NCBI GenBank assembly: GCA_013298985.1 | Contig: JAAFJS010000009.1 | Location: forward strand, 1-54,790 | DNA length: 54,790 nt | Source: Cytophagales bacterium | Lineage (GTDB): Bacteria > Bacteroidota > Bacteroidia > Cytophagales > Thermoflexibacteraceae | Direction: 5' to 3' | Shown: positions 488-48,259 of the stretch, piece after piece | Numbering within the stretch: position 1 is the stretch's first letter | Layout: every line of letters starts with the position of its first letter | Translations under genes and position numbers: made by a program | The notes under the pieces: model-generated | What the model saw: the letters and a program-made list of their open reading frames with translations, nothing else | Databases searched by the model: none | Told to the model about the DNA's origin: nothing

Positions 488-3400
488 ATGCAAAACGGCG
501 TAAACAAACAAAAACCCGTTATTTTTCTTGCTTTTGCCAATGATAAGGAGGACAATGCACGCTACCTCCGCAATCTCCCCAAAGAGTTAGATGGACTTCG
601 CAAGGCACTCATCCCTGCGGTGCAGGCAGACCTGTGTGAGGTAGTCGAGCGCGCCAGCGCGACGATGGAGCAGATATTGGATACTTTTCAAGAGGCTCGC
701 TACAAAGATAGAATTGCTATTTTTCATTATGGCGGTCATGCTGACGGCTATCAGCTTCTCTTAGAGCAACTTGACGGCTCGCATGGGGTCGCGCATGGGG
801 CGGGTTTGGTTTCTTTTTTTGCCAAACAAAAAGGATTAAAACTTGTTTTTTTTAATGGGTGCAGCACGCAGCAGCAGACCTTGGAACTGGTCGAGGCGGG
901 CGTGCCTGCGGTGGTAGGGACTTCTTCTGCCATTGGTGATGACATCGCGACCCATCTTTCTATTCGTTTTTACAATGGAATCGCACAAGGGCTTGCCATT
1001 GATAAGGCATGGCTGGAAGCGATAGATTACATCAAAATTCAGCAAGGTTTTGACAAAGGCAAAGGCGAAGTCAATACACGCGGGCTTTACCGCAAAGATA
1101 AAAAATCAGAAGAAAATCCGCCTGACCGCCTGCCCTGGGATATGTACTACAAGCAGGGCGCAGAAATTGTCAAAGATTGGAACTTGCCCGAAGCCGTTGA
1201 TAATCCGCTATTTGGCTTGCCCGACATCTGCCAGTTATTTCCTTTACCCGAAAAACCTTACCGCTTTTTAGAACGGTATAGCGAACAGCACACAGAAATA
1301 TTCTTTGGACGTTCTTATTATATCCGCGACCTCTATACACGCGCCATAGACCGCAATGCCGCCCCCATTCTCTTACTTTACGGACAGTCGGGCGTGGGTA
1401 AGTCTTCCCTGCTTGATGCGGGCGTACTTCCTCGTTTAGAGCAAGTTACCAAAGTTGTCTATACTCGAAGAAACCAAGACAAAGGACTTCTGGGAACACT
1501 GAAAGAAGCACTTGGAATACAAAATACAGAATCTGGAATTGAGAATCTGGAATCTGGAATACAAAATACAGAATACAGAATCTGGAATGAAGAATCTGGA
1601 ATCGTTAATAATGAACAACAAAATTATTTAGAAAATAAAGAACTATCTAACCATTCAACAATTCAACTATCTAACAATTTAACAACCAACAATCAACAAG
1701 AAACAACCCTATCCCAATTAGAAAAAATTGCAGAAACCTTGCATGGGGAAGCAAGAAACCACCTTTTGGCAAGTATTGAAGAACTAAGAATCCAAGAAAA
1801 CAAAAAGGAAATATTCAAGGTTGAAATAGAGGAAAAAGACAAGGATAGCTTAAAAACTGTTTGGAAAATCAAAGAAAGAGATGCCTTACAACCTTTCATC
1901 GTGATTTTAGACCAAGCAGAAGAGGTTTTTACACGCCCTAATGATGACCTGCCTCATGAGTTGCAAGATTTTTTGCAGCAAGTACACCTGATTTTTAGCA
2001 ATCCCAAAGACCGCCCTGCGGGGAAACTGATTTTGAGCTATAGAAAAGAGTACAGCGCAGAGTTTGACGAGGCATTCAAGAAATTGCAGTTGCCCAGAGA
2101 AGGTATTTTCCTCAAACACTTAGAGCGCAGGGACATTGTAGAGGTCATTACGGGATTAACCCTGACCCAAAGCCTCAAAAATCAGTACCGATTGACCATA
2201 GAATCTGAATTGCCTGTGATTATTGCTGATGACCTCCTCGAAGACAAGGACTCGCCCATTGCGCCTATTCTTCAGATTTTGCTGACTAAGATGTGGAACT
2301 TGACCGAAGACGAAGAATTGCGCTATTTTTCTGTGAAAAAATATCACCAGTTGAAAAGAGAGGGGATTTTGATGAACGATTTTTTTCAGCAACAAATGCA
2401 ACTTTTTAAGCAATGGAATCAGTACGAGGAATATTCTGGTCTTGCCTTAGACATTTTGAATTTCCATACCACGCTTTTGGGGACAGCAGGGAGCAGACGC
2501 ATAGAAGAAATCCAAAAACGCTATGCCCACCGCGCAGACATTGTAGAGCCTATTTTAAAAAAGTTTCAAGAATTGTATTTATTGGCGGGCTTTTCACGCA
2601 CGGTTACGGGCTTGGCGCACGATACACTTGCACCTGTGATACAGAGTGAGTTCCGAAGCTCAGACCGCGAAGGGCAACGCGCCACACGAGTTTTGGACAA
2701 CCGCCTTGCTGCTTTGAAAGGGAAAGAAAATTTGGAAGAAATTTTAGAAAATGATGACAAACTTGTTTTGGACGAAACTGATTTGGAAATTGTAGAAAAA
2801 GGAGCGCAAGGCATGAGGAATTGGGACAAAGAAGAAGACATATTGGTAACGGCAAGTCGTATTCGTAGAGAAAAAAATCGCAAACGAGAAAAACGTAATA
2901 AAATGATTTTGAGGGGATTAGGTGCATTAATTGCCTTGATGTTAGTGGTAGGCTTCATTTTTCAGCAAATCTATACACGAGAAATAGAAAAAGACAGAGA
3001 AAAAGCACTTGCCTCAGAAAAAAAGGCTCTTGCCTCTGAGAAAAGGGCAGAACAAGAACGCGTAGAAGCAGAAAAGCAGTCTAAAATCGCAAAAATAGAA
3101 TCTCAAAAGGCAATAGCAAGCGCAGAGGAAGCAGAAAAGCAGTCTAAAATCGCAAAAATAGAATCTCAAAGAGCAATAGCAAGCGTAGAAGAGGCAAAAA
3201 AACAAACCGCAATCGCCAATTATTCCAAAGTGCAGGCAGAGCAAGAGCAAAAAAAGGCAGAAATAGCAAGTATGAATGCAATGTATCAGGAAGATGTAGC
3301 AAAATTGGCAACCCAAAGCGCGCGCCGCGATTTGTTTTGGTTCAACTCCAAAGAATTGGCGGTCAAGTCTAAGGAAATTCAGACCGAGGAGGGCAAAGAT

Positions 3401-4654
3401 TTGAAATCTCTTTTAGCTCTTTCCTCTTACGTCTTGATAGACAGTGCGTTTGCTAAGAATAGAACCAAGCAATATGCCTTAGAAACGCTCGATGCCTTAC
3501 AGCAAGCAATGCTCAACTACGACAGGGAATTGGGTGATGAAAAAGGGCAACCTATCAAGGGAGAAATCAAAGCAGTTGCCTTAAATAAAGTAAATCAACA
3601 AGTTGCGTATGGCATCAAAAATAAGTTAATTATTGCCAGCATTATCGACGACAATGAAAAAGGCTATCCTCACTTACAAACTAAATTTGAGATAGAGCTT
3701 CGCGAGGGGGGAAAGCCTGAATACATCAGGGCATTGGCGTTTAGTCCTGATGGCGAAAATATCGCAGTAACTGCCACAGATGGAGATGTTTATTTCATTC
3801 CTGCAAATCCTGCACCCCAAGCGGCATTGCTTGCGTCTTCCAGGAAATTTGATAGAAAAGAAGAAAGTTCAGAGTTCAAACCCATTTATAGACACAATGA
3901 GAACGCGCTGGCAGTAAATATGCTCCAAGTCAAAGAATCTATTTATTTGATTTCGACAGGACGAGATACTGTGGTAAATGTGTGGGATTTGACTAAGAAA
4001 AAAATGGTGGCAAAGTTGCGCCCCGAAACCATTGCACGCTGCTTTACGATAGTGAATCAGCAACTTTTTGCGGGACTACGCAACGGCAGCATTCTATCTT
4101 GGGACTTGACCGACCTGAGCAAACCTCCCGTCAAACTTTATCAAGACAAGAACTATACTTTATTTGACATGGAGTTTGTGAGTAAGAAAAACTGGCTGGC
4201 AGTCGGAACGGACAAGGGTGAATTGTTACTTTTTAACCTCAACCTTCCTTCCTCACCTCCTGTGCGCCTCGAAGACGGTAAGCACGCTGGTGTCATCTAC
4301 GACATAGCCCTTAGCCCCGATGGAAGGTGGATAGCCACTGCGGGATTGGATAATATGCTCAAATTGTGGGATTTAAACCAAACGAAAACAATAGATGATG
4401 CTGACCGCATTGTGCCTTTGGATATGCCAAACAAGACAGGGCAAGTGCTTTCACTCTTGTTTGATGCCAAAAGTCAGTATCTATTTTTTGGAGATAATCA
4501 AAAAATGCAAGTCAGGGCAGTAGATATTCGCACGCTATTTTACAAACTCAAAAATAACCTCAAAGACAAGCAGTTAAGCAATGAGCAGTGGAAGTTTTAC
4601 ATCAAAGGTGATTTGACAAAACCTGAAATTAAGTATGACAACAAAAACAAGTAA
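488..4654 (+). CDS. CHAT caspase-like / nSTAND NTPase / WD40 protein
   Basis: This is a 1388-residue multidomain protein. Residues ~10-190 are a CHAT (caspase HetF-associated) domain with the His of HYGGHAD (H84) and the Cys of NGCST (C125). A STAND/AAA-type NTPase follows, with Walker A GQSGVGKSS at ~299-307 and Walker B VILDQAEEVF at ~472-481. A single membrane segment lies at ~806-828, then a Lys/Glu/Ala-rich coiled coil (~830-960) and degenerate WD40 repeats to the C-terminus. Known relatives are sensor proteins in which repeats detect a trigger and the NTPase activates the protease; some act in anti-phage or suicide responses. Between Walker A and B there is a ~60-residue low-complexity insertion. 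The next two genes follow at 30 and 3 nt, implying one operon. The domains are clear; the target and trigger are unknown. Confidence 0.88.
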   Translation: MQNGVNKQKPVIFLAFANDKEDNARYLRNLPKELDGLRKALIPAVQADLCEVVERASATMEQILDTFQEARYKDRIAIFHYGGHADGYQLLLEQLDGSHGVAHGAGLVSFFAKQKGLKLVFFNGCSTQQQTLELVEAGVPAVVGTSSAIGDDIATHLSIRFYNGIAQGLAIDKAWLEAIDYIKIQQGFDKGKGEVNTRGLYRKDKKSEENPPDRLPWDMYYKQGAEIVKDWNLPEAVDNPLFGLPDICQLFPLPEKPYRFLERYSEQHTEIFFGRSYYIRDLYTRAIDRNAAPILLLYGQSGVGKSSLLDAGVLPRLEQVTKVVYTRRNQDKGLLGTLKEALGIQNTESGIENLESGIQNTEYRIWNEESGIVNNEQQNYLENKELSNHSTIQLSNNLTTNNQQETTLSQLEKIAETLHGEARNHLLASIEELRIQENKKEIFKVEIEEKDKDSLKTVWKIKERDALQPFIVILDQAEEVFTRPNDDLPHELQDFLQQVHLIFSNPKDRPAGKLILSYRKEYSAEFDEAFKKLQLPREGIFLKHLERRDIVEVITGLTLTQSLKNQYRLTIESELPVIIADDLLEDKDSPIAPILQILLTKMWNLTEDEELRYFSVKKYHQLKREGILMNDFFQQQMQLFKQWNQYEEYSGLALDILNFHTTLLGTAGSRRIEEIQKRYAHRADIVEPILKKFQELYLLAGFSRTVTGLAHDTLAPVIQSEFRSSDREGQRATRVLDNRLAALKGKENLEEILENDDKLVLDETDLEIVEKGAQGMRNWDKEEDILVTASRIRREKNRKREKRNKMILRGLGALIALMLVVGFIFQQIYTREIEKDREKALASEKKALASEKRAEQERVEAEKQSKIAKIESQKAIASAEEAEKQSKIAKIESQRAIASVEEAKKQTAIANYSKVQAEQEQKKAEIASMNAMYQEDVAKLATQSARRDLFWFNSKELAVKSKEIQTEEGKDLKSLLALSSYVLIDSAFAKNRTKQYALETLDALQQAMLNYDRELGDEKGQPIKGEIKAVALNKVNQQVAYGIKNKLIIASIIDDNEKGYPHLQTKFEIELREGGKPEYIRALAFSPDGENIAVTATDGDVYFIPANPAPQAALLASSRKFDRKEESSEFKPIYRHNENALAVNMLQVKESIYLISTGRDTVVNVWDLTKKKMVAKLRPETIARCFTIVNQQLFAGLRNGSILSWDLTDLSKPPVKLYQDKNYTLFDMEFVSKKNWLAVGTDKGELLLFNLNLPSSPPVRLEDGKHAGVIYDIALSPDGRWIATAGLDNMLKLWDLNQTKTIDDADRIVPLDMPNKTGQVLSLLFDAKSQYLFFGDNQKMQVRAVDIRTLFYKLKNNLKDKQLSNEQWKFYIKGDLTKPEIKYDNKNK
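1513..1702 (+). repeat. Low-complexity in-frame insertion in CHAT-NTPase gene
   Basis: The stretch consists of degenerate repeats of an AATACARAATMTGGAAT-like unit (1513-1612), then a CAA/AAC-rich tract (about 1655-1702). It encodes Asn/Gln/Ser-rich ESGIQN-type repeats and the heptapeptide LTTNNQQ. It sits between Walker A and Walker B, where compact family members have a short loop. An 18-base version of the CAAC tract recurs in frame in the DUF5686 gene (10164-10184). Confidence 0.65.
3068..3193 (+). repeat. 63-bp tandem duplication in coiled-coil region
   Basis: Units 3068-3130 and 3131-3193 are nearly identical and in frame (21 codons each, EAEKQSKIAKIES-type). They lengthen the coiled coil just after the membrane segment of the CHAT-STAND protein by three heptads per unit. 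Confidence 0.8.
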
Positions 4655-4684
4655 ATCCATTATATTTGCAAAAAATAGCTGAAA

Positions 4685-5833
4685 ATGATACAGAAAATAG
4701 CCATTACCAATTATAAATCCGTCGTAAACCTCGAACTCGATTTGGGTCGTATCAATGTCTTTATTGGTGAAAATGGCTGCGGGAAAACCAATATACTGGA
4801 GGCAATCGCGATGGGGAGTGCCGCAGCAGCTAATAAACTGGACAATGAGTTTTTATTTACAAGAGGAGTGAGGGTTACAGAACCAAAATTAATGTTATCT
4901 GCATTTGAAAAAGATAAACAGTCTAAAATTTTTATTAGTTTTTTTAAAGAAGATAAATATGTATTTGGAACTGAAATATCCTACAAAGATTCAGATTGGG
5001 TAGTGGGTATAAAAATTTATAAAACTGATAATAATATAATATCATCAATAAATGAATTAAAAAAAACATTAAGTGATGAGCAAAACTCACAAATATCTCA
5101 AAATGAGAAGAGAAGGCAAAATAGAACCGAAAGAAGAATAATGGAGCATCGTCGCATAATATTTGATAAATATTTTAATTTCCCACTTCCAATTTACTGC
5201 CCTGAAAACTATTTTCTTAGAAATTTTAATGATGAAGGACAAATCAGACCTTTGGGCATACGCGGCGAAGGACTTTTTAAGCATATTTTGGATTTATACA
5301 AGCAAAAACCTGAAATCTTGGAGAAAATCAGTGAAAACCTCAAACTCATAGATTGGTTTGGGGGCTTCGAGATTCCCAAAGACCTCTTTTTTACTGAAAA
5401 ACGCATCAATATCAAAGACCGTTTTCTTGCCCACCTCGATTATTTTGACCAGAAAAGTGCCAATGAGGGCTTTTTATACTTACTTTTTTATTTCACTTTG
5501 TTTATCAGTGAGTTCACCCCTAAGTTTTTCTCGATTGATAACATTGACAATGCGCTGAACCCAAAACTTTGCGCCAAATTGATACAAGTTTTGGCAGGAT
5601 TGACCAAAGAGCATGACAAACAAGTGATTTTGACAACACACAATCCAGCTATTCTTGATGGATTGGACTTAACAGATGACCAACAGCGATTGTTTACCAT
5701 TTATAGAAATGCTGATGGTCATACGGTTGCTCGCAGAATTTTTGCACCCAAAAAAGTAAATAATCGTGAAACGGTGAGGCTTTCAGAAGCCTATATCAGA
5801 GGCTATTTGGGCGGTTTGCCTGAAAATTTCTAA
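4685..5833 (+). CDS. RecF/OLD-type AAA ATPase (AAA_15/AAA_21)
   Basis: 382 residues. The N-terminus has the typical SMC/OLD start: a beta strand with ITNYKSV, then Walker A GENGCGKTN at ~30-38. The Walker B region near residue ~281 reads FSIDNIDNALNP, where relatives usually have IDExExxLHP, so the Asp is kept but the usual catalytic Glu is Asn. The H-loop is present as LTTHNPAILDGLD. There is no Toprim nuclease domain in this chain; a Toprim-like protein follows after 3 nt. This is the arrangement of a split OLD-type system, comparable in logic to other ATPase plus Toprim or RloB-like defence pairs. The N-terminal Met at 4685 fits the family start. The ATPase family is confident; a nuclease-partner role is inferred from context. 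Confidence 0.82.
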   Translation: MIQKIAITNYKSVVNLELDLGRINVFIGENGCGKTNILEAIAMGSAAAANKLDNEFLFTRGVRVTEPKLMLSAFEKDKQSKIFISFFKEDKYVFGTEISYKDSDWVVGIKIYKTDNNIISSINELKKTLSDEQNSQISQNEKRRQNRTERRIMEHRRIIFDKYFNFPLPIYCPENYFLRNFNDEGQIRPLGIRGEGLFKHILDLYKQKPEILEKISENLKLIDWFGGFEIPKDLFFTEKRINIKDRFLAHLDYFDQKSANEGFLYLLFYFTLFISEFTPKFFSIDNIDNALNPKLCAKLIQVLAGLTKEHDKQVILTTHNPAILDGLDLTDDQQRLFTIYRNADGHTVARRIFAPKKVNNRETVRLSEAYIRGYLGGLPENF

Positions 5834-5836
5834 GTA

Positions 5837-7555
5837 ATGAATGAATGTGATATGATAGACAAAAGTTTTGGAATTATCAGCGAAGGGGTTACAGACCAGA
5901 TAGTATTGAAAAATATTTTAGTGGGCTTTACAGGCAGTAAAGATGTGTTTGTGAAGTCTTTACAACCCAAAAAGAATGAATCAGGAAATTGGGACAAGGT
6001 TTTTAAGTATTGCCAATCTGATGACTTTAAGGGTGCTTTTGGCTTTTATGATTTTGTACTTATCCAAATAGATACAGATTTTATGTATAGAGGAGAAGTG
6101 CCTGAAAATCATAAAATTAACCTCAAAAATTTGACGGTGGATGAAACAGTAGAGGCTTTCAAAAACAAGCTAATTGAGTGGATAGGAAAAGATTTTTATC
6201 AGCAGTATTCAAACCAAATTATTTTTGCTATTTCAGTAAACGAAATAGAATGTTGGTTTCTGCCCATTTATTTCCCTAATCAGAAAGTAAAAGCCTCAAA
6301 AACAATGAATTGTATAGATACACTGAATACTATTTTACCCCAAAAAGAAGGATTTTACATAGATAGCAAGCAATTAGCTTATTATCAAACGATTAGTAAG
6401 TATTTCCAAAAGAAGCATGATTTAGAAAAATATAGCGCGAAAAACCCAAGTTTTCACTTATTCATCAAAGGACTTAGACAAAAGTTGGGCATATTTTTGT
6501 TTTTGTTCATGGCTTTTTTCTTTTTGCAAACCAATGTATGCCAAGCCCAAAAAACGGAAATCTTAGAGCTACAGTATGCCACTGCTCAGAAATATTACCA
6601 GCAGGGGAAATTAGATTCTTCAACTTTTATTTTGGAGAAAATGATTGTTTCTCCCTCATTTCCAAGACTTTATCAAGGTACAAAGGCAGATGTTTACAAA
6701 CTCTTGGCAATGTCTTACATCACACTCGACCGCCTCTATGATGCAGAGAAGCCGCTCCGCAAAATGCTTGCCCTTCGTCCTTTTTACAAGCCCCAAGAGG
6801 ACGACCTTGCTCGCCTTAAGTCTGCTTTGGACACCCTCAAAGCGACCTCTCTCTTTTCCTTGGGCATACGCGCAGGAGGAAATATAGCCTTTACTCGGCG
6901 TGTAGGAGATGCTATCTCAGTGATTAGTAGCTTGGACAACCCTAATTTGGGCGACGAAAAGTACAATATTGGCTTGGGTTATTACTTAGGATTTTATTTT
7001 AGATACCGTATTTTCAAGAACATAGCTATTGTATTCATGCCTTCGCTGACTAACTATGTCTTTGGCTATGAAGAAAGTTATAGTTTGCAACGTGCAGGCA
7101 AAAACGACAGGATAGCAACCAATTTTAGCTATAATTACAAGCAAAACATCAGCTATATTGAAACACCTATTAGTATTAATTATAGCATCGCCCCCAATAG
7201 TAAGCTAAGACCTTTTGTATCAGTGGGTTGGTTTCAAAGTTTCTTACTGAGCGCGACCAAGACGAGTAATGCTACTTTTGTTTCTGTTTCCCAATCCTTC
7301 CCCAATCGCGAAAATTTCATCAATGCCAATAGCGGTTTTATGCTTGGCTTTGGACTGACTTATGAGCTAAACAAGTTTGCTTTTAACATAGATGCACGCT
7401 ACAAATATGGTCTTATCAACTTGACCAATAGTAGCAATCGTTTTGCCAATCCAGAAGCAGCACTTGGTTTTTACGATATTCCTAACGACATCAAAATCAA
7501 CAATATAGAGCTTGGCTTTTCATTGATTTACCACCTCAATTTCAAAGTATTTTGA
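5837..7555 (+). CDS. Toprim-like (DUF4276/RloB-type) domain fused to TPR/outer-membrane barrel
   Basis: 572 residues that read like two proteins. Residues 1-~214 resemble Toprim/DUF4276/RloB proteins: GIISEGVTD with E16, LIQIDTDF with D79 and D81, and NEIECWF around E137-E139. They end with SFHLFIKGLRQKL, which looks like a natural C-terminus. Residues ~214-237 then form a hydrophobic signal-peptide-like segment ending CQAQ. The rest has TPR-like helices (~240-335) and a ~220-residue beta-barrel ending in aromatic VF, as in Bacteroidota outer-membrane proteins. No Met upstream of the hydrophobic core gives a normal signal peptide: the internal ATG at 6508 leaves only ~14 residues before the cleavage site. 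It is either a true fusion after loss of a stop, two genes joined by a sequencing error, or internal initiation. A cytoplasmic nuclease domain and an outer-membrane barrel should not work as one chain. Confidence 0.7.
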   Translation: MNECDMIDKSFGIISEGVTDQIVLKNILVGFTGSKDVFVKSLQPKKNESGNWDKVFKYCQSDDFKGAFGFYDFVLIQIDTDFMYRGEVPENHKINLKNLTVDETVEAFKNKLIEWIGKDFYQQYSNQIIFAISVNEIECWFLPIYFPNQKVKASKTMNCIDTLNTILPQKEGFYIDSKQLAYYQTISKYFQKKHDLEKYSAKNPSFHLFIKGLRQKLGIFLFLFMAFFFLQTNVCQAQKTEILELQYATAQKYYQQGKLDSSTFILEKMIVSPSFPRLYQGTKADVYKLLAMSYITLDRLYDAEKPLRKMLALRPFYKPQEDDLARLKSALDTLKATSLFSLGIRAGGNIAFTRRVGDAISVISSLDNPNLGDEKYNIGLGYYLGFYFRYRIFKNIAIVFMPSLTNYVFGYEESYSLQRAGKNDRIATNFSYNYKQNISYIETPISINYSIAPNSKLRPFVSVGWFQSFLLSATKTSNATFVSVSQSFPNRENFINANSGFMLGFGLTYELNKFAFNIDARYKYGLINLTNSSNRFANPEAALGFYDIPNDIKINNIELGFSLIYHLNFKVF

Positions 7556-20840: not shown

Positions 20841-21912
20841 TTACTTCAACTTCTTTTTCAACTCTTCTAATTCTTTCAAAAGCATTTCTTTTTGCCTTCT
20901 CTCTTCTTCTTTTTGTCTTCTCTCTTCTTCTATTGTCTTCTCTTTTTCTTCTATTGTCTTCTCTTTTTCCTCAATTGTCTTTTCCTTCTCCTCAATCTGC
21001 AATTCTTGTTGCTTGATAGTTTCGTCTTTTTCTTTCAATCGCTTCTGAAATTCTCGTTCAAAAACATGGTCTATTTCGTCCTCCAAGTCCATTTGCTTGC
21101 GAATTTCATCACTTGCTACTGCCCTTGTCAGCTTGTCCAAAAGTCGTTTCGTCTTTTTCTTTCAATCGCTTCTGAAATTCTCGTTCAAAAACATGGTCTA
21201 TTTCGTCCTCCAAGTCCATTTGCTTGCGAATTTCATCACTTGCTACTGCCCTTGTCAGCTTGTCCAAAAGTCGCTGCACCAAAGGCTCATTGCTATCTCC
21301 TTGAAAATTGAGTTTGTGTAAGTCAGAGGTCAAAAATTCTTGACTAAATACCTGTAAAACTTTCTCTAACTTGGTCTGCATCACTACTTTCAGGCGGGGA
21401 ATCTGAATGGTATAGCTGTCGTGGGTGAGCAGTTCCACAAAGTTTTCTTTCACATTTAATATTTCTCCTGTTACTGCATTTTTATACACACGATTCACTT
21501 TGAGGATAGGGATAGGCACATTTTCTAACTTAAATCCTAAGAAATAAATCGTCAAAATGGGGAGCGCGTTCGTTTCTGCCATGCCATCTATCACCTTGCC
21601 TGTGGGGTCTTCTTCACGATAGTTTTCTCCCAAATAGCGTCTAAATCGCATCACATCAAACAAATGCTTTGCTTTTTGGAGTTCTATGAGGACTTTTTTA
21701 TTTTCACCTGTTGCTGTTTTGATGACGGCTTTGAAGTCCAAGCGCAGGATTTTGAGGGTGTAGGCGAGGTTTTCGCTGCTGGTTTCTTGTGGCTTGACGA
21801 CGAGGTCGATGATTTCCTCCCCAAGAATGGTGGAGAGCAACTCGCGGGCGATGTCTATATCGTCCATGAGGTACTTAAACACTGCATCATAAATAGGATT
21901 GGCGATAATCAT
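20841..21912 (-). pseudogene. Rpn-type PD-(D/E)XK gene, copy 2, broken by 127-bp duplication
   Basis: Starting at 21912, the first 253 residues are identical to copy 1, including the nuclease-like pattern ILRLDFKAV .. VLIELQKAK. A perfect 127-bp tandem duplication (21020-21146 and 21147-21273) shifts the frame (127 = 3x42+1), so the first frame ends at 21109 after KDETTFGQADKGSSK. The original C-terminal coiled coil continues in another frame to 20841 (EEKEKTIEEKEKTIEEE repeats). Removing one unit restores one ORF of ~315 residues. It may still produce a truncated protein. The event looks recent because the two units show no differences. Confidence 0.85.
21020..21273 (-). repeat. Perfect 127-bp tandem duplication
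   Basis: Units 21020-21146 and 21147-21273 are identical base for base on reading. The unit lies in the coding region for EIRKQMDLEDEIDHVFEREF. The event frameshifts the copy 2 gene and could revert by slippage or recombination. Confidence 0.93.
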
Positions 21913-21962
21913 AATGGCTTATTTTCACAAAAAAGTTTGAGTAAAGTTATGAAACTATACAA

Positions 21963-22847
21963 TTATTCTTTCAACTTCTTTTTTAATTCTTCTAATTCTT
22001 TCAAAAGTATTTCCTTTTGCCTTCTTTCTTCCTCAATAGTTTTATCCTTTTCTTCAATAGTTTTATCCTTTTCTTCTATGATTTCGTCTTTTTCTTTCAA
22101 TCGCTTCTGAAATTCTCGTTCAAAAACATGGTCTATTTCGTCCTCCAAGTCCATTTGCTTGCGAATTTCATCACTTGCTACTGCCCTTGTCAGCTTGTCC
22201 AAAAGTCGCTGCACCAAAGGCTCATTGCTATCTCCTTGAAAATTGAGTTTGTGTAAGTCAGAGGTCAAAAATTCTTGACTAAATACCTGTAAAACTTTCT
22301 CTAACTTGGTCTGCATCACTACTTTCAGGCGGGGAATCTGAATGGTATAGCTGTCGTGGGTGAGCAGTTCCACAAAGTTTTCTTTCACATTTAATATTTC
22401 TCCTGTTACTGCATTTTTATACACACGATTCACTTTGAGGATAGGGATAGGCACATTTTCTAACTTAAATCCTAAGAAATAAATCGTCAAAATGGGGAGC
22501 GCGTTCGTTTCTGCCATGCCATCTATCACCTTGCCTGTGGGGTCTTCTTCACGATAGTTTTCTCCCAAATAGCGTCTAAATCGCATCACATCAAACAAAT
22601 GCTTTGCTTTTTGGAGTTCTATGAGGACTTTTTTATTTTCACCTGTTGCTGTTTTGATGACGGCTTTGAAGTCCAAGCGCAGGATTTTGAGGGTGTAGGC
22701 GAGGTTTTCGCTGCTGGTTTCTTGTGGCTTGACGACGAGGTCGATGATTTCCTCCCCAAGAATGGTGGAGAGCAACTCGCGGGCGATGTCTATATCGTCC
22801 ATGAGGTACTTAAACACTGCATCATAAATAGGATTGGCGATAATCAT
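21963..22847 (-). CDS. Rpn family nuclease/transposase-like (PD-(D/E)XK), copy 1
   Basis: 294 residues, intact. It belongs to the Rpn / PDDEXK_2 family (recombination-promoting nuclease, putative transposase): NPIYDAVFKYLMDD at the start, the ILRLDFKAV .. VLIELQKAK catalytic pattern (Asp, Glu, Lys) near residues ~55-80, and LPILTIYFLGF. The C-terminal tail is a Lys/Glu coiled coil with IIEEKDKTIEEKDKTIEEE repeats, shorter than in copy 2. The two copies share long identical DNA, so one is a recent tandem duplicate, with starts 935 bp apart. These proteins promote recA-independent DNA transfer in other bacteria; that role here is inference. Confidence 0.82.
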   Translation of the reverse strand: MIIANPIYDAVFKYLMDDIDIARELLSTILGEEIIDLVVKPQETSSENLAYTLKILRLDFKAVIKTATGENKKVLIELQKAKHLFDVMRFRRYLGENYREEDPTGKVIDGMAETNALPILTIYFLGFKLENVPIPILKVNRVYKNAVTGEILNVKENFVELLTHDSYTIQIPRLKVVMQTKLEKVLQVFSQEFLTSDLHKLNFQGDSNEPLVQRLLDKLTRAVASDEIRKQMDLEDEIDHVFEREFQKRLKEKDEIIEEKDKTIEEKDKTIEEERRQKEILLKELEELKKKLKE

Positions 22848-44920: not shown

Positions 44921-44982
44921 GCACACGCACACGCACACGCACACGCACACGCACACGCACACGCACACGCACACGCACACGC
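44921..44982. repeat. (GCACAC)n hexanucleotide microsatellite, about 10 units
   Basis: 62 bases of perfect GCACAC repeats end in GCGTGAAA. They lie in the 312-bp gap between mpg and the LuxR-type gene, at the boundary of the AT-rich island. Repeats of this size are prone to slippage. The gap holds no other supported gene. Confidence 0.97.
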
Positions 44983-45122: not shown

Positions 45123-45362
45123 ATGCATTTATTTGAAGACCAAGAAGGCGAAGACCAAGAACCCAAACCGCTCACTGCCCAAGAGCAAAAAATAATAGAG
45201 ATAATGGGCAAAGGCATACTGAGCAATGCCCTCATTGGCAACCAGTTAAACCTCAGCCCACACACCGTCAAAAACCACAAGGAGAATATCAAGAAGAAGC
45301 TAAAACTAAAAACTTGCCCCGAACTGCTGGAGCTGGCGGTAAGTTTACGAGAAAAAGGTTAA
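45123..45362 (+). CDS. Small LuxR-type (GerE) HTH regulator
   Basis: 79 residues from the ATG at 45123; a TTG at 45063 adds 20 residues that do not look conserved. The protein is almost only a GerE helix-turn-helix: PLTAQEQKIIEIMGKGILSNA .. LNLSPHTVKNHKENIKKKLK. It has no receiver or sensor domain, so its control must come from expression or partners. Directly downstream are a 10-bp palindrome and a promoter for the secreted peptides, so it is the obvious candidate regulator of the cassette (inference). It is preceded by the hexanucleotide repeat. Confidence 0.85.
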   Translation: MHLFEDQEGEDQEPKPLTAQEQKIIEIMGKGILSNALIGNQLNLSPHTVKNHKENIKKKLKLKTCPELLELAVSLREKG

Positions 45363-45405
45363 AATTAGTAACTTGTTACTAATTGAAAATGAGCAAATTA
45401 GTAAC
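45363..45405 (+). promoter_or_regulatory. Palindromic candidate operator plus extra half-site
   Basis: AATTAGTAAC (45363-45372) and GTTACTAATT (45375-45384) form a perfect 10-bp inverted repeat with a 2-base centre. A third half-site AATTAGTAAC is at 45396-45405, 33 bases (three helical turns) from the first. The site starts right after the LuxR-type stop codon and lies just upstream of the promoter at 45415, a position where a bound regulator would act on it. Which protein binds is inferred. Confidence 0.7.
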
Positions 45406-45414
45406 TTATTCCTA

Positions 45415-45445
45415 TTGACATTGTGTTTTATTTTGCTTTACTTTG
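45415..45445 (+). promoter_or_regulatory. Promoter of secreted peptide cassette
   Basis: TTG (45415-45417), 21-base spacer, TACTTTG (45439-45445), which is one base short of TAnnTTTG. The ATG of the first peptide is 80 bases downstream. Confidence 0.6.
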
Positions 45446-45525
45446 TAGCGCACTTTGGTACTTCGCGAAGGTATTATTGTAATCGTTAGTTTTTCGTATT
45501 TTCAAACGCTTAAATCTTAAAAATC

Positions 45526-45732
45526 ATGAAAAGTAAACTTAAGAAAATTGGGTTTTTATTTACTTTCGTGCTTATTATCAGTATTAGCATGATAAATAGT
45601 ACAGAAGCCCAAAAAGAACCTGCTGAGGTTAAAGAGGGAGTATGGAAGGATACGAGTCACCTTCCTAATCCACCATGGCCTCAATGTGATTGTAGCCAAT
45701 GTCCCAATATAACTACTTGTTATTGTACCTAA
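45526..45732 (+). CDS. Small secreted Cys-rich peptide 1
   Basis: 68 residues with a signal peptide (MKSKLKKIGFLFTFVLIIS..STEA) and Gln as predicted first mature residue (QKEPAEV). The mature ~40-residue peptide ends in a Cys cluster: PQCDCSQCPNITTCYCT has five Cys, ending CxC. Peptide 2 (45947) has the same layout: MKSKL start, A-QK junction and a C-terminal CxC .. CxC, so they are paralogues or functional equivalents. I do not recognise a named family; it is not a NVEALA peptide by motif, though it sits in a comparable setting with a beta-propeller lipoprotein. Export by Sec is expected. The function is unknown. Confidence 0.75.
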   Translation: MKSKLKKIGFLFTFVLIISISMINSTEAQKEPAEVKEGVWKDTSHLPNPPWPQCDCSQCPNITTCYCT

Positions 45733-45946
45733 TTAGCTTTTATCAGCAATTTCTGCTTTGGCATAAAGGTAAACTTTGTGATTTTGTTGAGTCAAAATTT
45801 GTGTATTTTAGGATATTTTCAAACAAAAAAAGCAAAAGTTTATTTCGTTTTTTCAATGGAAAAAGAGGATGCTTTGCCACAGGATTTCCAAAGCAGGAAT
45901 TGCTAAATTTTTATCAATTTCATAACATTTAAAACTCATTTTTATC

Positions 45947-46159
45947 ATGAAGTCAAAACTAATCAAGCTAATGTTTGCTTTATTGCTCACAATAAGTGGA
46001 GGAATAGGAGGCATCAGTGTTTTGCCTGTAGCCAACAGTGTGTATGCACAAAAGCAACCACCAGAATCAAAGGATGGAAAAAAGGGAGAACTCAATGGAT
46101 TGCCTACTTGTGAGTGTAGTACTACACCACTAACTCCTGATTGTACTTGCCTTCTTTAA
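45947..46159 (+). CDS. Small secreted Cys-rich peptide 2
   Basis: 70 residues. Signal peptide MKSKLIKLMFALLLTISGG .. VYA with predicted mature start QKQPPESKDG (36 residues). It ends CECSTTPLTPDCTCLL, a C-x-C-x8-C-x-C arrangement with four Cys. It is 214 bases after peptide 1 and 24 bases before a MITE-like element. No separate promoter was identified. Mature peptides of both genes share QK.P..x(K/V)(E/D)G and the terminal CxC, supporting a common role. Confidence 0.75.
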   Translation: MKSKLIKLMFALLLTISGGIGGISVLPVANSVYAQKQPPESKDGKKGELNGLPTCECSTTPLTPDCTCLL

Positions 46160-46182
46160 GAGAGGGGGCGTAATATGTAAGT

Positions 46183-46299
46183 AGATGAGGGTGGCTAAAA
46201 AGTACGATTTTCATAAATTTGAAAGATATAAAATGTTATTTATCAATATTATATATCTTTAATAAATGTGTAACTTTGACTTTTCGGACAACCTCATCT
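46183..46299. mobile_element. MITE-like element with 21-bp inverted termini
   Basis: The ends are AGATGAGGGTGGCTAAAAAGT (46183-46203) and the inverted counterpart ending ACAACCTCATCT (46279-46299); they match at 17 of 21 positions. The 117-bp element is non-coding and has an inner inverted repeat (AAAGATATA with TATATCTTT). The GAGGTTGTCC..AAAAGT type of terminus resembles ends of IS5/IS1182-like elements, so it is probably a transposase-less derivative. It lies between peptide 2 and the propeller gene and may disrupt or supply regulation there. The target-site duplication is not certain. Confidence 0.6.
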
Positions 46300-46343
46300 T
46301 AGTATGTATTTATAAATAACAATATAACCAAATAAATTACATC

Positions 46344-47540
46344 ATGATTAGAAAATATTTGTCAATTATTTCTTTTACTTTCTTGTCCTTAGTCTTTTTC
46401 TCATGTTCTAATGTAGATGAGCATATAGTAAAGGAAATCACATACTCTGATTCTTACAAATTTAAAGTGATAGATACTTTGGATATTGCAGTAATTAACC
46501 GTAGAGGTATTAGGTTAATAGATTACAATAAAGAGAATAACAACCTTCTCTGTTCAAACGCTGCTGGCATGGACACTATATATGAAGCTAATAAAAAAGG
46601 GAATATCATCAATAAATTTTCTGCTGCTGGAGAACATGATAAGGCGATAGGAAGCCACATATATGGTATTGGTTATTTTAATGATACTTCAATTGTGGTT
46701 ACTGGTACCAGAGGCGTTTTCCTTTACAGGCCAGATGGAACGCTTGTACGTACTATTTCAGATTTAACGCCTCTTGGTTATGGAGGATTAAGCTTAAGAG
46801 TTAGGGAGTTCAATAATGATAAAGGTTCTTTTATTCTATCTAATTTTAAACCATCCATTAAAGTTGAAGAAATACGTAATCTGAGAGGTACAATGAAATT
46901 GTATGAAACTGTTAAATACTTGACATCATATAATTTGAAAAACAATACTTATGAAGTCAAAATTGGTTTTGAAGAGCAAAGCATATTTCGAAAAGGAGAT
47001 AATGAATACCTTAGCACTGACCAACTTTTTGATTACGACAACGATAAAGGTTATGTTTATTCATTGATAAATCCAGAATCTAAAATTTACACTTATGATG
47101 TGAACAACGAGTTCCAACTTACGAAAAGCATTGATTTAATGCCTGAATACTTCAAAATCCTTCATTTCTTGAAATTAGGAGAAAAGCCAAAAAATTCTTT
47201 TCGGTCTGTCTATGTAAATAGTGGCTTTGGAAGTCTTAATATTTGGGAAAATAATTGTATTATAACTTATGGCACAGGTATTCCTGATGATAAGTTTGTA
47301 GAAGGCTTGTCTAATGTTGAATTGCAAGAACTTTGGAAGTCTTACCAAAAATATTATGCTATATATCTGAAGGAAGATATTAAGCAATGTAATGATATTG
47401 CTCTACCAAAAGGTACTGGAAGCATAGCGTTATTCAAATCCATGGATGAAATCTACCTTACTACGATACCTACAGAAGAAACAGAAACAAAAGGAATTAC
47501 AAGATATTATGTTTGCAAATTGGAAAAAGAAATACAATAA
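46344..47540 (+). CDS. Beta-propeller lipoprotein (6-bladed type)
   Basis: 398 residues with lipobox VFFSC (Cys ~22). The sequence is a run of beta strands of the form KFKVIDTLDI / GIGYFNDTSIVVTGTRGVFLY / DGTLVRTIS / GYVYSLINPESKIYTYD, consistent with a 6-bladed propeller of the kind seen in Bacteroidota lipoproteins (BF3164 and DUF4934-type). In Bacteroides these are found with small secreted peptides and redoxins, as here. It overlaps the next gene by 32 bases. AT-rich like the rest of the island. It may bind, sense or process the peptides (inference). Confidence 0.7.
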   Translation: MIRKYLSIISFTFLSLVFFSCSNVDEHIVKEITYSDSYKFKVIDTLDIAVINRRGIRLIDYNKENNNLLCSNAAGMDTIYEANKKGNIINKFSAAGEHDKAIGSHIYGIGYFNDTSIVVTGTRGVFLYRPDGTLVRTISDLTPLGYGGLSLRVREFNNDKGSFILSNFKPSIKVEEIRNLRGTMKLYETVKYLTSYNLKNNTYEVKIGFEEQSIFRKGDNEYLSTDQLFDYDNDKGYVYSLINPESKIYTYDVNNEFQLTKSIDLMPEYFKILHFLKLGEKPKNSFRSVYVNSGFGSLNIWENNCIITYGTGIPDDKFVEGLSNVELQELWKSYQKYYAIYLKEDIKQCNDIALPKGTGSIALFKSMDEIYLTTIPTEETETKGITRYYVCKLEKEIQ

Positions 47541-47958
47541 GCAACTGGGTTGCTTTTGTATTATATGGTTGCTATTAGGTTGTAATGAAAATAGCCAAGA
47601 GAAAAATTACATTTCATCAGCTCTTCAAAAAGAGATAGATATTTCAAAATACAACAAAGTAGTAATTTGGAGCGAAACAGACTGTTATGAATGTAATAGT
47701 CGCAAGTTCCAATTAATTTCTTCACAATTGTTGAACAGTAGCGATAAGGTATTTGGTTTATTTTTCCGTATAAGTAAACTAAAACCAGAAATGTTTGATA
47801 AAGACCTCAAAAAAATTGAGTTAGTAAAAGATTGGAAAGAAATAAGAGATAATAAACTCATGTCCGCTCTTGCTAAAACTACAGGAGCATCAAGTAGTCC
47901 CTATTTGATAATTTTAAGTGAAAGTGGAGAATTTATTGTTGAATCTATAACTTTATAA
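47509..47958 (+). CDS. Thioredoxin-like CxxC lipoprotein
   Basis: 149 residues from the ATG at 47509. A longer frame from 47446 lies inside the propeller gene and does not place a signal peptide. The signal is KYNKQLGCFCIIWLLLGCNEN with lipobox LLGC. WSETDCYECNSRK contains a CxxC (CYEC) in the position of a thioredoxin-fold active site, and SSSPYLIIL could supply the cis-Pro strand. An envelope thioredoxin-like lipoprotein next to two Cys-rich secreted peptides suggests disulfide handling of those peptides (inference). The start overlaps the propeller gene by 32 bases, so translation is coupled. Confidence 0.72.
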   Translation: MFANWKKKYNKQLGCFCIIWLLLGCNENSQEKNYISSALQKEIDISKYNKVVIWSETDCYECNSRKFQLISSQLLNSSDKVFGLFFRISKLKPEMFDKDLKKIELVKDWKEIRDNKLMSALAKTTGASSSPYLIILSESGEFIVESITL

Positions 47959-47968
47959 ATCTTTCTAT

Positions 47969-48259
47969 GTGATTACTTTTTCCTTGTCCAAACTTTTGAA
48001 AGCCACTACAACCCCACCTTCCGCCTCGCAAAACTGCTACAAAAGCAATGCCGCCCGCATCTTCTACCACCGCTTAGGGCTACGAGGCGAGATAGACAGG
48101 GACAGCCCGCAACTCATAGCCGAAAAGATACAAGCACTACTCACTAACCCACTTTACAGGCAAAATCTACACGCTTTCAAGGAAAAAGCAGAGGCAAAAT
48201 ATACAGAGGAGAGGGTGTTGAAACTGGTGAAAGGATTGATGAAAAGCAATGAATTATAA
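47969..48259 (+). pseudogene. Collapsed glycosyltransferase (UGT/MGT type) pseudogene
   Basis: Two frames are joined. In one frame 47977-48055 reads FFLVQTFESHYNPTFRLAKLL, matching the N-terminus of GT1-type glycosyltransferases (FESHxNPxxxLAxxL). The other frame reads NAARIFYHRLGLRGEIDRD .. IQALLTNPLYRQNL .. EERVLKLVKGLM, the family C-terminus. The ~300 residues of the catalytic domain between them are missing and the parts are out of frame. It is GC-richer than the cassette on its left, so the cassette was probably placed next to an old decayed gene or its insertion deleted most of it. Confidence 0.6.

Follow-up and report, generated by a model that had tools for sequence, protein, structure and literature searches.

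A recurrent gene module of secreted cysteine-rich peptides, propeller lipoproteins and CxxC lipoproteins in Thermoflexibacter and other Bacteroidota

The window considered here, 54,790 nucleotides of a genome from a Cytophagales bacterium (family Thermoflexibacteraceae; assembly GCA_013298985.1, contig JAAFJS010000009.1, positions 1 to 54,790), carries five genes that make up one module: a helix-turn-helix (HTH) regulator, two Sec-exported, Cys-rich peptides, a beta-propeller lipoprotein, and an overlapping CxxC lipoprotein. The initial annotation had listed these five open reading frames (ORFs) in this order on one strand, and all five lie where it placed them. The overlap that it reported between the lipoprotein genes is also present: the CxxC frame, with a likely start at ATG 47509, shares 32 nt with the propeller gene, and the corresponding overlap in module R8 of Thermoflexibacter ruber DSM 9560, a member of the same genus, is 29 nt. 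The features of the module and its control region, in window coordinates, are as follows.

44921 to 44982, no strand: perfect microsatellite, (GCACAC)x10.3, 140 bp 5' of the HTH start (Tandem Repeats Finder, TRF).
45123 to 45362, + strand: HTH regulator, module-specific, stand-alone LuxR/GerE type, 79 aa (PF00196, E = 1e-12).
45364 to 45416, + strand: two boxes of the TTAGTAAC type that may bind the HTH protein; they recur 5' of the peptide in other HTH-type modules.
45437 to 45471, + strand: conserved promoter/operator element TTTACTTTGTAGCGCACTTTGGTACTTCGCGAAGG with a palindrome, found in nearly every module promoter of two species.
45526 to 45732, + strand: secreted peptide 1; signal peptide at 45526 to 45609, mature part QKEPAEV...CDCSQCPNITTCYCT.
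45947 to 46159, + strand: secreted peptide 2; signal peptide at 45947 to 46048, mature part QKQPPES...CECSTTPLTPDCTCLL.
46344 to 47540, + strand: beta-propeller lipoprotein with a DUF4221-like fold, lipid Cys at residue 21 (fold match to 3s9j, NHL profile match, relatives in other modules).
47509 to 47958, + strand: thioredoxin-like lipoprotein, lipid Cys25, CxxC at residues 59 to 62 (invariant Cys, profile matches to thiol oxidoreductases).
47969 to 48259, + strand: C-terminal stub of a glycosyltransferase, with homology from about 48044 (over 67 aa, it shares 82% of its residues with an intact enzyme encoded on contig C201 of the window's genome).

Because the glycosyltransferase stub sits directly downstream of the five genes, the window module is a truncated copy of a six-part module, and the sequence of the locus is best read as one partly decayed copy of a multi-copy module. 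Homologues of the genes that flank it occur separately, on contigs C110 and C75, in T. ruber (an empty-site comparison). The initial annotation had proposed a secreted peptide handled by the two lipoproteins; the best reading is still that a peptide is secreted and that the CxxC lipoprotein handles its thiols, but the multi-copy nature of the locus, the glycosyltransferase, the microsatellites, and the promoter element had been overlooked.

The combination of peptide and propeller/CxxC pair, for which the initial annotation had suggested a search in other genomes, recurs in several of them. In T. ruber, a single contig carries eleven modules within about 34 kb, with propellers of DUF4221, DUF5128, and unassigned types, and the window's genome has at least four further modules, on contigs C201 and C130. 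The order in a Runella metagenome-assembled genome (MAG) is HTH, peptide, propeller (with an interrupted frame), CxxC, and glycosyltransferase, and peptide/propeller/CxxC sets are also found in other Bacteroidota. Two DUF6734 genes, one full-length and one shorter, lie between modules on contig C201 (L042, 12181 to 13743 and 16138 to 16758).

The mature parts of the window peptides comprise 40 residues with five Cys (peptide 1) and 36 residues with four Cys (peptide 2), the Cys being C-terminal in both, and they are preceded by Sec signal peptides 28 and 34 residues long, both ending in A|QK. The description of small, secreted, Cys-rich peptides beginning with QK thus stands as far as signal peptides, QK, and Cys are concerned, but the QK start, which we considered as a special trait of these peptides, is ordinary: most signal peptidase I substrates of Bacteroidetes begin with Gln (PMC5837995). 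The two peptides are 44% identical over 61 codons, with a proportion of nonsynonymous differences (pN) of 0.40 versus a proportion of synonymous differences (pS) of 0.79. The initial annotation had also called for a check of codon conservation among relatives, and purifying selection is evident: the orthologous mature peptides of modules M5 and R5 are 85% identical, with a pN of 0.12 versus a pS of 0.95, and such conservation despite saturated synonymous sites argues that the peptide frames are real and constrained (pN for the propellers of this pair is 0.21). Neither window peptide matches NVEALA (PF14055), which has no match anywhere in the window's genome, and PADLOC returned no match for the peptides or the propeller.

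The leaders behave differently from the mature parts. Leader DNA of peptide 1 (from 45526) is the same at 26 of 26 bases as that of a peptide on contig C130 of the same genome (L094, 1391), and the leaders of T. ruber use other codons, which suggests that leaders are homogenised within a genome. In the genomes searched, all eight copies of the leader DNA pattern fall in modules.

That the fourth gene encodes a propeller lipoprotein, as first annotated, is supported from two sides. The best Protein Data Bank (PDB) match of its structure model is 3s9j, the DUF4221 crystal structure (E = 1.2e-9; template modeling score, 0.55 to 0.60), the model itself being of moderate confidence (predicted local distance difference test score [pLDDT], 59; predicted template modeling score [pTM], 0.61), and a profile built from its relatives matches NHL propellers (6e-13). 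The window protein has no Pfam match above threshold, the curated cutoff of PF13970 (DUF4221) included, and, used as a single query against genome contigs, it found no relatives; PF13970 is matched by propellers of other modules and by six of the eight relatives in the structure alignment.

Peptides and propellers are linked in two ways. Among 28 DUF4221 propellers sampled across the class, 11, from seven genomes, have a secreted Cys-rich small ORF no more than 700 bp upstream, compared with 13 of 1,400 shuffled upstream sequences (0.9%). Other long genes scored in 5 of 152 cases, three of which are themselves propeller lipoproteins, the window's included, leaving about 2 of 149. Within Thermoflexibacter, similarity among mature peptides follows similarity among propellers (Mantel r = 0.38, P = 0.0004, permutation within genomes), and that among leaders does not (P = 0.09). 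Consistent with this pairing by type, the mature part of peptide 1 and the window propeller both find their best match in the same T. ruber module, R8. Short ORFs are easily found by eye, and it might be supposed that these are chance neighbours of unrelated lipoproteins, but this explanation is refuted by recurrence in many modules and families and is further contradicted by codon conservation and by the shared promoters described below; we regard it as wholly improbable.

In the fifth protein, the lipid Cys and the CxxC motif are invariant among relatives, whose profile matches thioredoxin-like oxidoreductases (8t4c, 1.8e-5; 3hcz, 1.7e-4). It is this profile that backs the thioredoxin-like assignment made earlier; the structure model is of low confidence (pLDDT, 60; pTM, 0.41), gave no significant PDB match, and was not used. 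Some modules have a DUF1573 protein in place of the CxxC protein, and in one Bacteroidales NVEALA locus (L092) a single lipoprotein consists of a CxxC domain fused to DUF1573, a fusion that suggests that the two act together. Bacteroides lacks general disulfide machinery (PMC6671954), and if this shortage extends to the Cytophagales, it would explain why each module has a dedicated thiol protein.

The glycosyltransferases of intact modules are EryCIII/UDPGT-like and sit 3' of the CxxC gene in several other modules; the window's genome has two intact enzymes. An alignment search with this enzyme found matches in T. ruber DSM 9560 and, next, in a Bernardetiaceae MAG. Resistance-nodulation-division (RND) pump or membrane-fusion genes adjoin modules in C201, G041, G085, and G227. 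In Dyadobacter, Emticicia, and others, the same glycosyltransferase family lies beside Cys-rich peptides with double-glycine (GG) leaders, C39 transporters, and a C39-VKOR-thioredoxin protein. Since these sets resemble the bacteroidetocin gene set (PMC6671954), we lean, among a signal, a bacteriocin, and a coat, toward a bacteriocin-like role, the resemblance being a single bridge. A fusion of C39-like, VKOR, and thioredoxin-like parts adjoins glycosyltransferase and GG-leader peptide in L107 (11353 to 12978), with relatives in L108, L111, and L112. At another locus (L015, 1162 to 12063, on contig C20 of G097), propeller lipoproteins and several Cys-rich peptides with GG leaders follow one another in alternation, with a piece of a C39 peptidase alongside. 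This locus may link peptides of the GG type to propeller partners; one peptide there has a subthreshold match to CCPGW, a putative bacteriocin family (E = 0.005).

The regulator consists of a GerE domain and nothing more, its 79 aa leaving no room for a receiver or ligand domain, and all six close relatives in two Thermoflexibacter genomes, counting the window's own, fall within modules. A PADLOC match of this protein to a CARF model extends no further than the HTH that the two have in common and was rejected. A module-specific HTH gene beside the peptide, tandem boxes ahead of it, and cognate pairing of peptide and propeller would all suit a signal between sister cells, with the propeller as receptor or binding protein and the LuxR-type HTH providing feedback. 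The HTH protein, however, has no sensory domain, no kinase gene is adjacent, and most T. ruber modules have no HTH gene; moreover, many divergent peptides per genome with a glycosyltransferase/redox set exceed what a signal needs, and we consider this explanation unlikely.

Ahead of the first peptide, the element TTTACTTTGTAGCGyACTTTGGTACTT with its palindrome is present, whole or in part, in 15 of the 16 modules aligned, and its core occurs once in the window, where none is expected. The palindrome centres differ among modules (AGCT, CGCG, or ACGT), a covariation that is suggestive, with few independent changes behind it. Placed 5' of this element are the TTAGTAAC boxes in HTH-bearing modules and, in most others, a perfect heptamer array. 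Both kinds of repeat are placed in a restricted manner: (GCACAC)n occurs at only three sites in the 6.06 Mb of the window's genome, each 5' of one of its three module HTH genes, and all six (ATAATTC) arrays of at least four copies in the T. ruber genome lie within modules. Together with a seventh of 3.9 copies, these end 127 to 128 bp before the ATG of the first peptide.

The arrays also vary in length. Modules R4 and R5 have four and seven heptamer copies between flanks that are identical at 169 of 170 positions, which shows that the arrays change in length more quickly than the DNA around them diverges, and full units range from three to nine between otherwise near-identical T. ruber promoters; this comparison covers T. 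ruber paralogues, the window's own array not being among them. The module copies arose by duplication, so microsatellite-bearing modules are not independent events. Perfect heptamers on contigs C90 and C330 of the window's genome (L202, 5590 to 5626; L203, 7328 to 7366) precede unrelated genes, from which it follows that heptamers are not module-specific in that genome; the genes behind them are candidates for other phase-variable genes.

Heptamer repeats near start codons in Beggiatoaceae have been proposed as regulator or posttranscriptional sites (PMC4679880), and by analogy, the heptamer and hexamer arrays here might be regulator binding sites rather than switches, in modules that are conventionally regulated. 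A fixed distance from array to ATG would suit such sites. The variable copy number between near-identical promoters and the different repeat units of the window's genome speak against them, and the T. ruber arrays, lying 127 bp off and 5' of the likely promoter, fit a posttranscriptional role less well. We think it improbable that the arrays are binding sites alone.

Multi-copy loci marked by microsatellites are typical of surface variation, as in the studied cases from Moraxella, and the peptides, bound to the propeller lipoprotein, could instead coat the cell surface or serve as decoys in a phase-variable manner and so hide the cell from phages or predators. Lipoprotein partners and, in intact modules, a glycosyltransferase would fit this proposal, but the mature peptides, about 30 to 60 residues long across modules and without an anchor, make poor coat material, and sequence inspection alone revealed no clear surface-export signal on the propeller. 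We do not expect a coat to be the answer, and give it about the same low weight as a signal.

The account that we tentatively prefer, and that we place slightly short of an even chance, is that these loci are copies of a phase-variable module, several per genome, that makes a secreted disulfide peptide, with the propeller as its cognate partner and a probably bacteriocin-like use. The gene order, the multiple copies, the pairing of peptide and propeller types, the common promoter element, and the repeats are read directly from the sequences; disulfides, glycosylation, switching, and killing are inferred. Slippage of the microsatellites would shift the level of the HTH protein or the activity of the module promoter, such that cells of one population would express different modules. 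Sec would export the peptide, and signal peptidase I would expose a Gln that becomes pyroglutamate; the CxxC lipoprotein would form or repair the disulfides of the peptide, in intact modules, the peptide may be glycosylated by the module's glycosyltransferase, and where an RND pump and membrane-fusion protein are encoded next to a module, they may export the product. As the cognate partner, the propeller lipoprotein would confer immunity or act as a receptor, either shielding the producer or displaying the peptide, and the most likely use would be competition, by bacteriocin-like killing, between related cells. The window copy may have lost the sugar step, or may rely for it on the two intact glycosyltransferases that the genome encodes at other sites.

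Several points weigh against this account. Such an upstream peptide is missing from 17 of the 28 DUF4221 propellers sampled, and linked inheritance alone could make peptides and propellers track one another. The CxxC lipoprotein might reduce disulfides rather than form them. The differences in repeat number come from comparisons of paralogues rather than of isolates. Finally, the window peptides are only modestly similar to those of R8 (38% identical; pN of 0.45 versus pS of 0.67), and because the glycosyltransferase is broken as well, the window copy may be decaying.

A wider proposal seems to us rather doubtful, although less so than a signal or a coat: that Thermoflexibacter and its relatives maintain a phase-variable arsenal in which each module specifies a distinct disulfide, possibly glycosylated, peptide with its own propeller, slippage picks the modules in use, a clone is a mix of producer and immunity types, and the NVEALA/propeller loci of gut Bacteroidales are of the same kind. 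It is reasonably possible that no system of this kind has been described before.

Those NVEALA (PF14055) loci are the Bacteroidales counterpart of the modules and their nearest neighbourhood, and work alike, although the window is not a member. Both are multi-copy and combine a small secreted, often Cys-bearing peptide, a six-bladed propeller lipoprotein, and a CxxC lipoprotein, but PF14055 is absent from the window and its genome, and the leader motif differs. The NVEALA loci that we read have a signal peptidase I gene (L091, 13835 to 14725; L092, 265 to 1137; L093, 2293 to 3180), perhaps dedicated to these peptides, and neither glycosyltransferase nor microsatellite was seen there. With DUF4221, whose structure 3s9j is BVU_1028 of Bacteroides vulgatus, the window protein shares the predicted propeller fold without a PF13970 match. 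Contingency loci, such as uspA1 and uspA2 of Moraxella, likewise have perfect tandem repeats 5' of genes for exported proteins, with repeat numbers that differ between copies, whereas the present modules are many and linked, each with its own array, and their switching is a reading of sequence. Glycocins such as sublancin also combine a Cys-rich peptide with a glycosyltransferase and thioredoxin-like proteins, but the window enzyme is of the EryCIII/UDPGT-like type and is represented there only by a 3' stub. Bacteroidetocins, which are class IIf bacteriocins, share a small Cys-rich secreted peptide and a dedicated thiol oxidoreductase gene but have GG leaders of 15 to 16 residues and an ABC transporter/peptidase (PMC6671954), whereas the window has Sec signal peptides and no adjacent transporter or peptidase.

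No function is known for DUF4221, DUF5128, or NVEALA, families annotated in Bacteroidota, among them gut species, and the literature searched yielded no paper mentioning DUF4221 or NVEALA. The modules join these families into one set comprising a Cys-rich peptide, a cognate propeller, a thiol lipoprotein, and a glycosyltransferase, with hints of random switching, and together with their short repeats, they suggest that cells compete, or alter their surface, by means of a peptide system not yet described. If the role is bacteriocin-like, a large store of disulfide peptides and immunity proteins would so far have gone unrecognised; a role in signalling or as a coat would be equally new. T. ruber DSM 9560, a deposited strain with about eleven modules, makes the role of these families directly testable.

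Elsewhere in the window, positions 20841 to 22847 hold tandem duplicate genes that start with MIIANPIYDAVFKYLMDD and are identical in their N-terminal parts, and TRF reports a perfect 127-bp tandem duplication at 21019 to 21273. A possible defence-type locus occupies positions 488 to 7555, where the gene for a large protein of 1,388 aa precedes those for an ATP-binding protein (GENGCGKTN) and a 572-aa partner.

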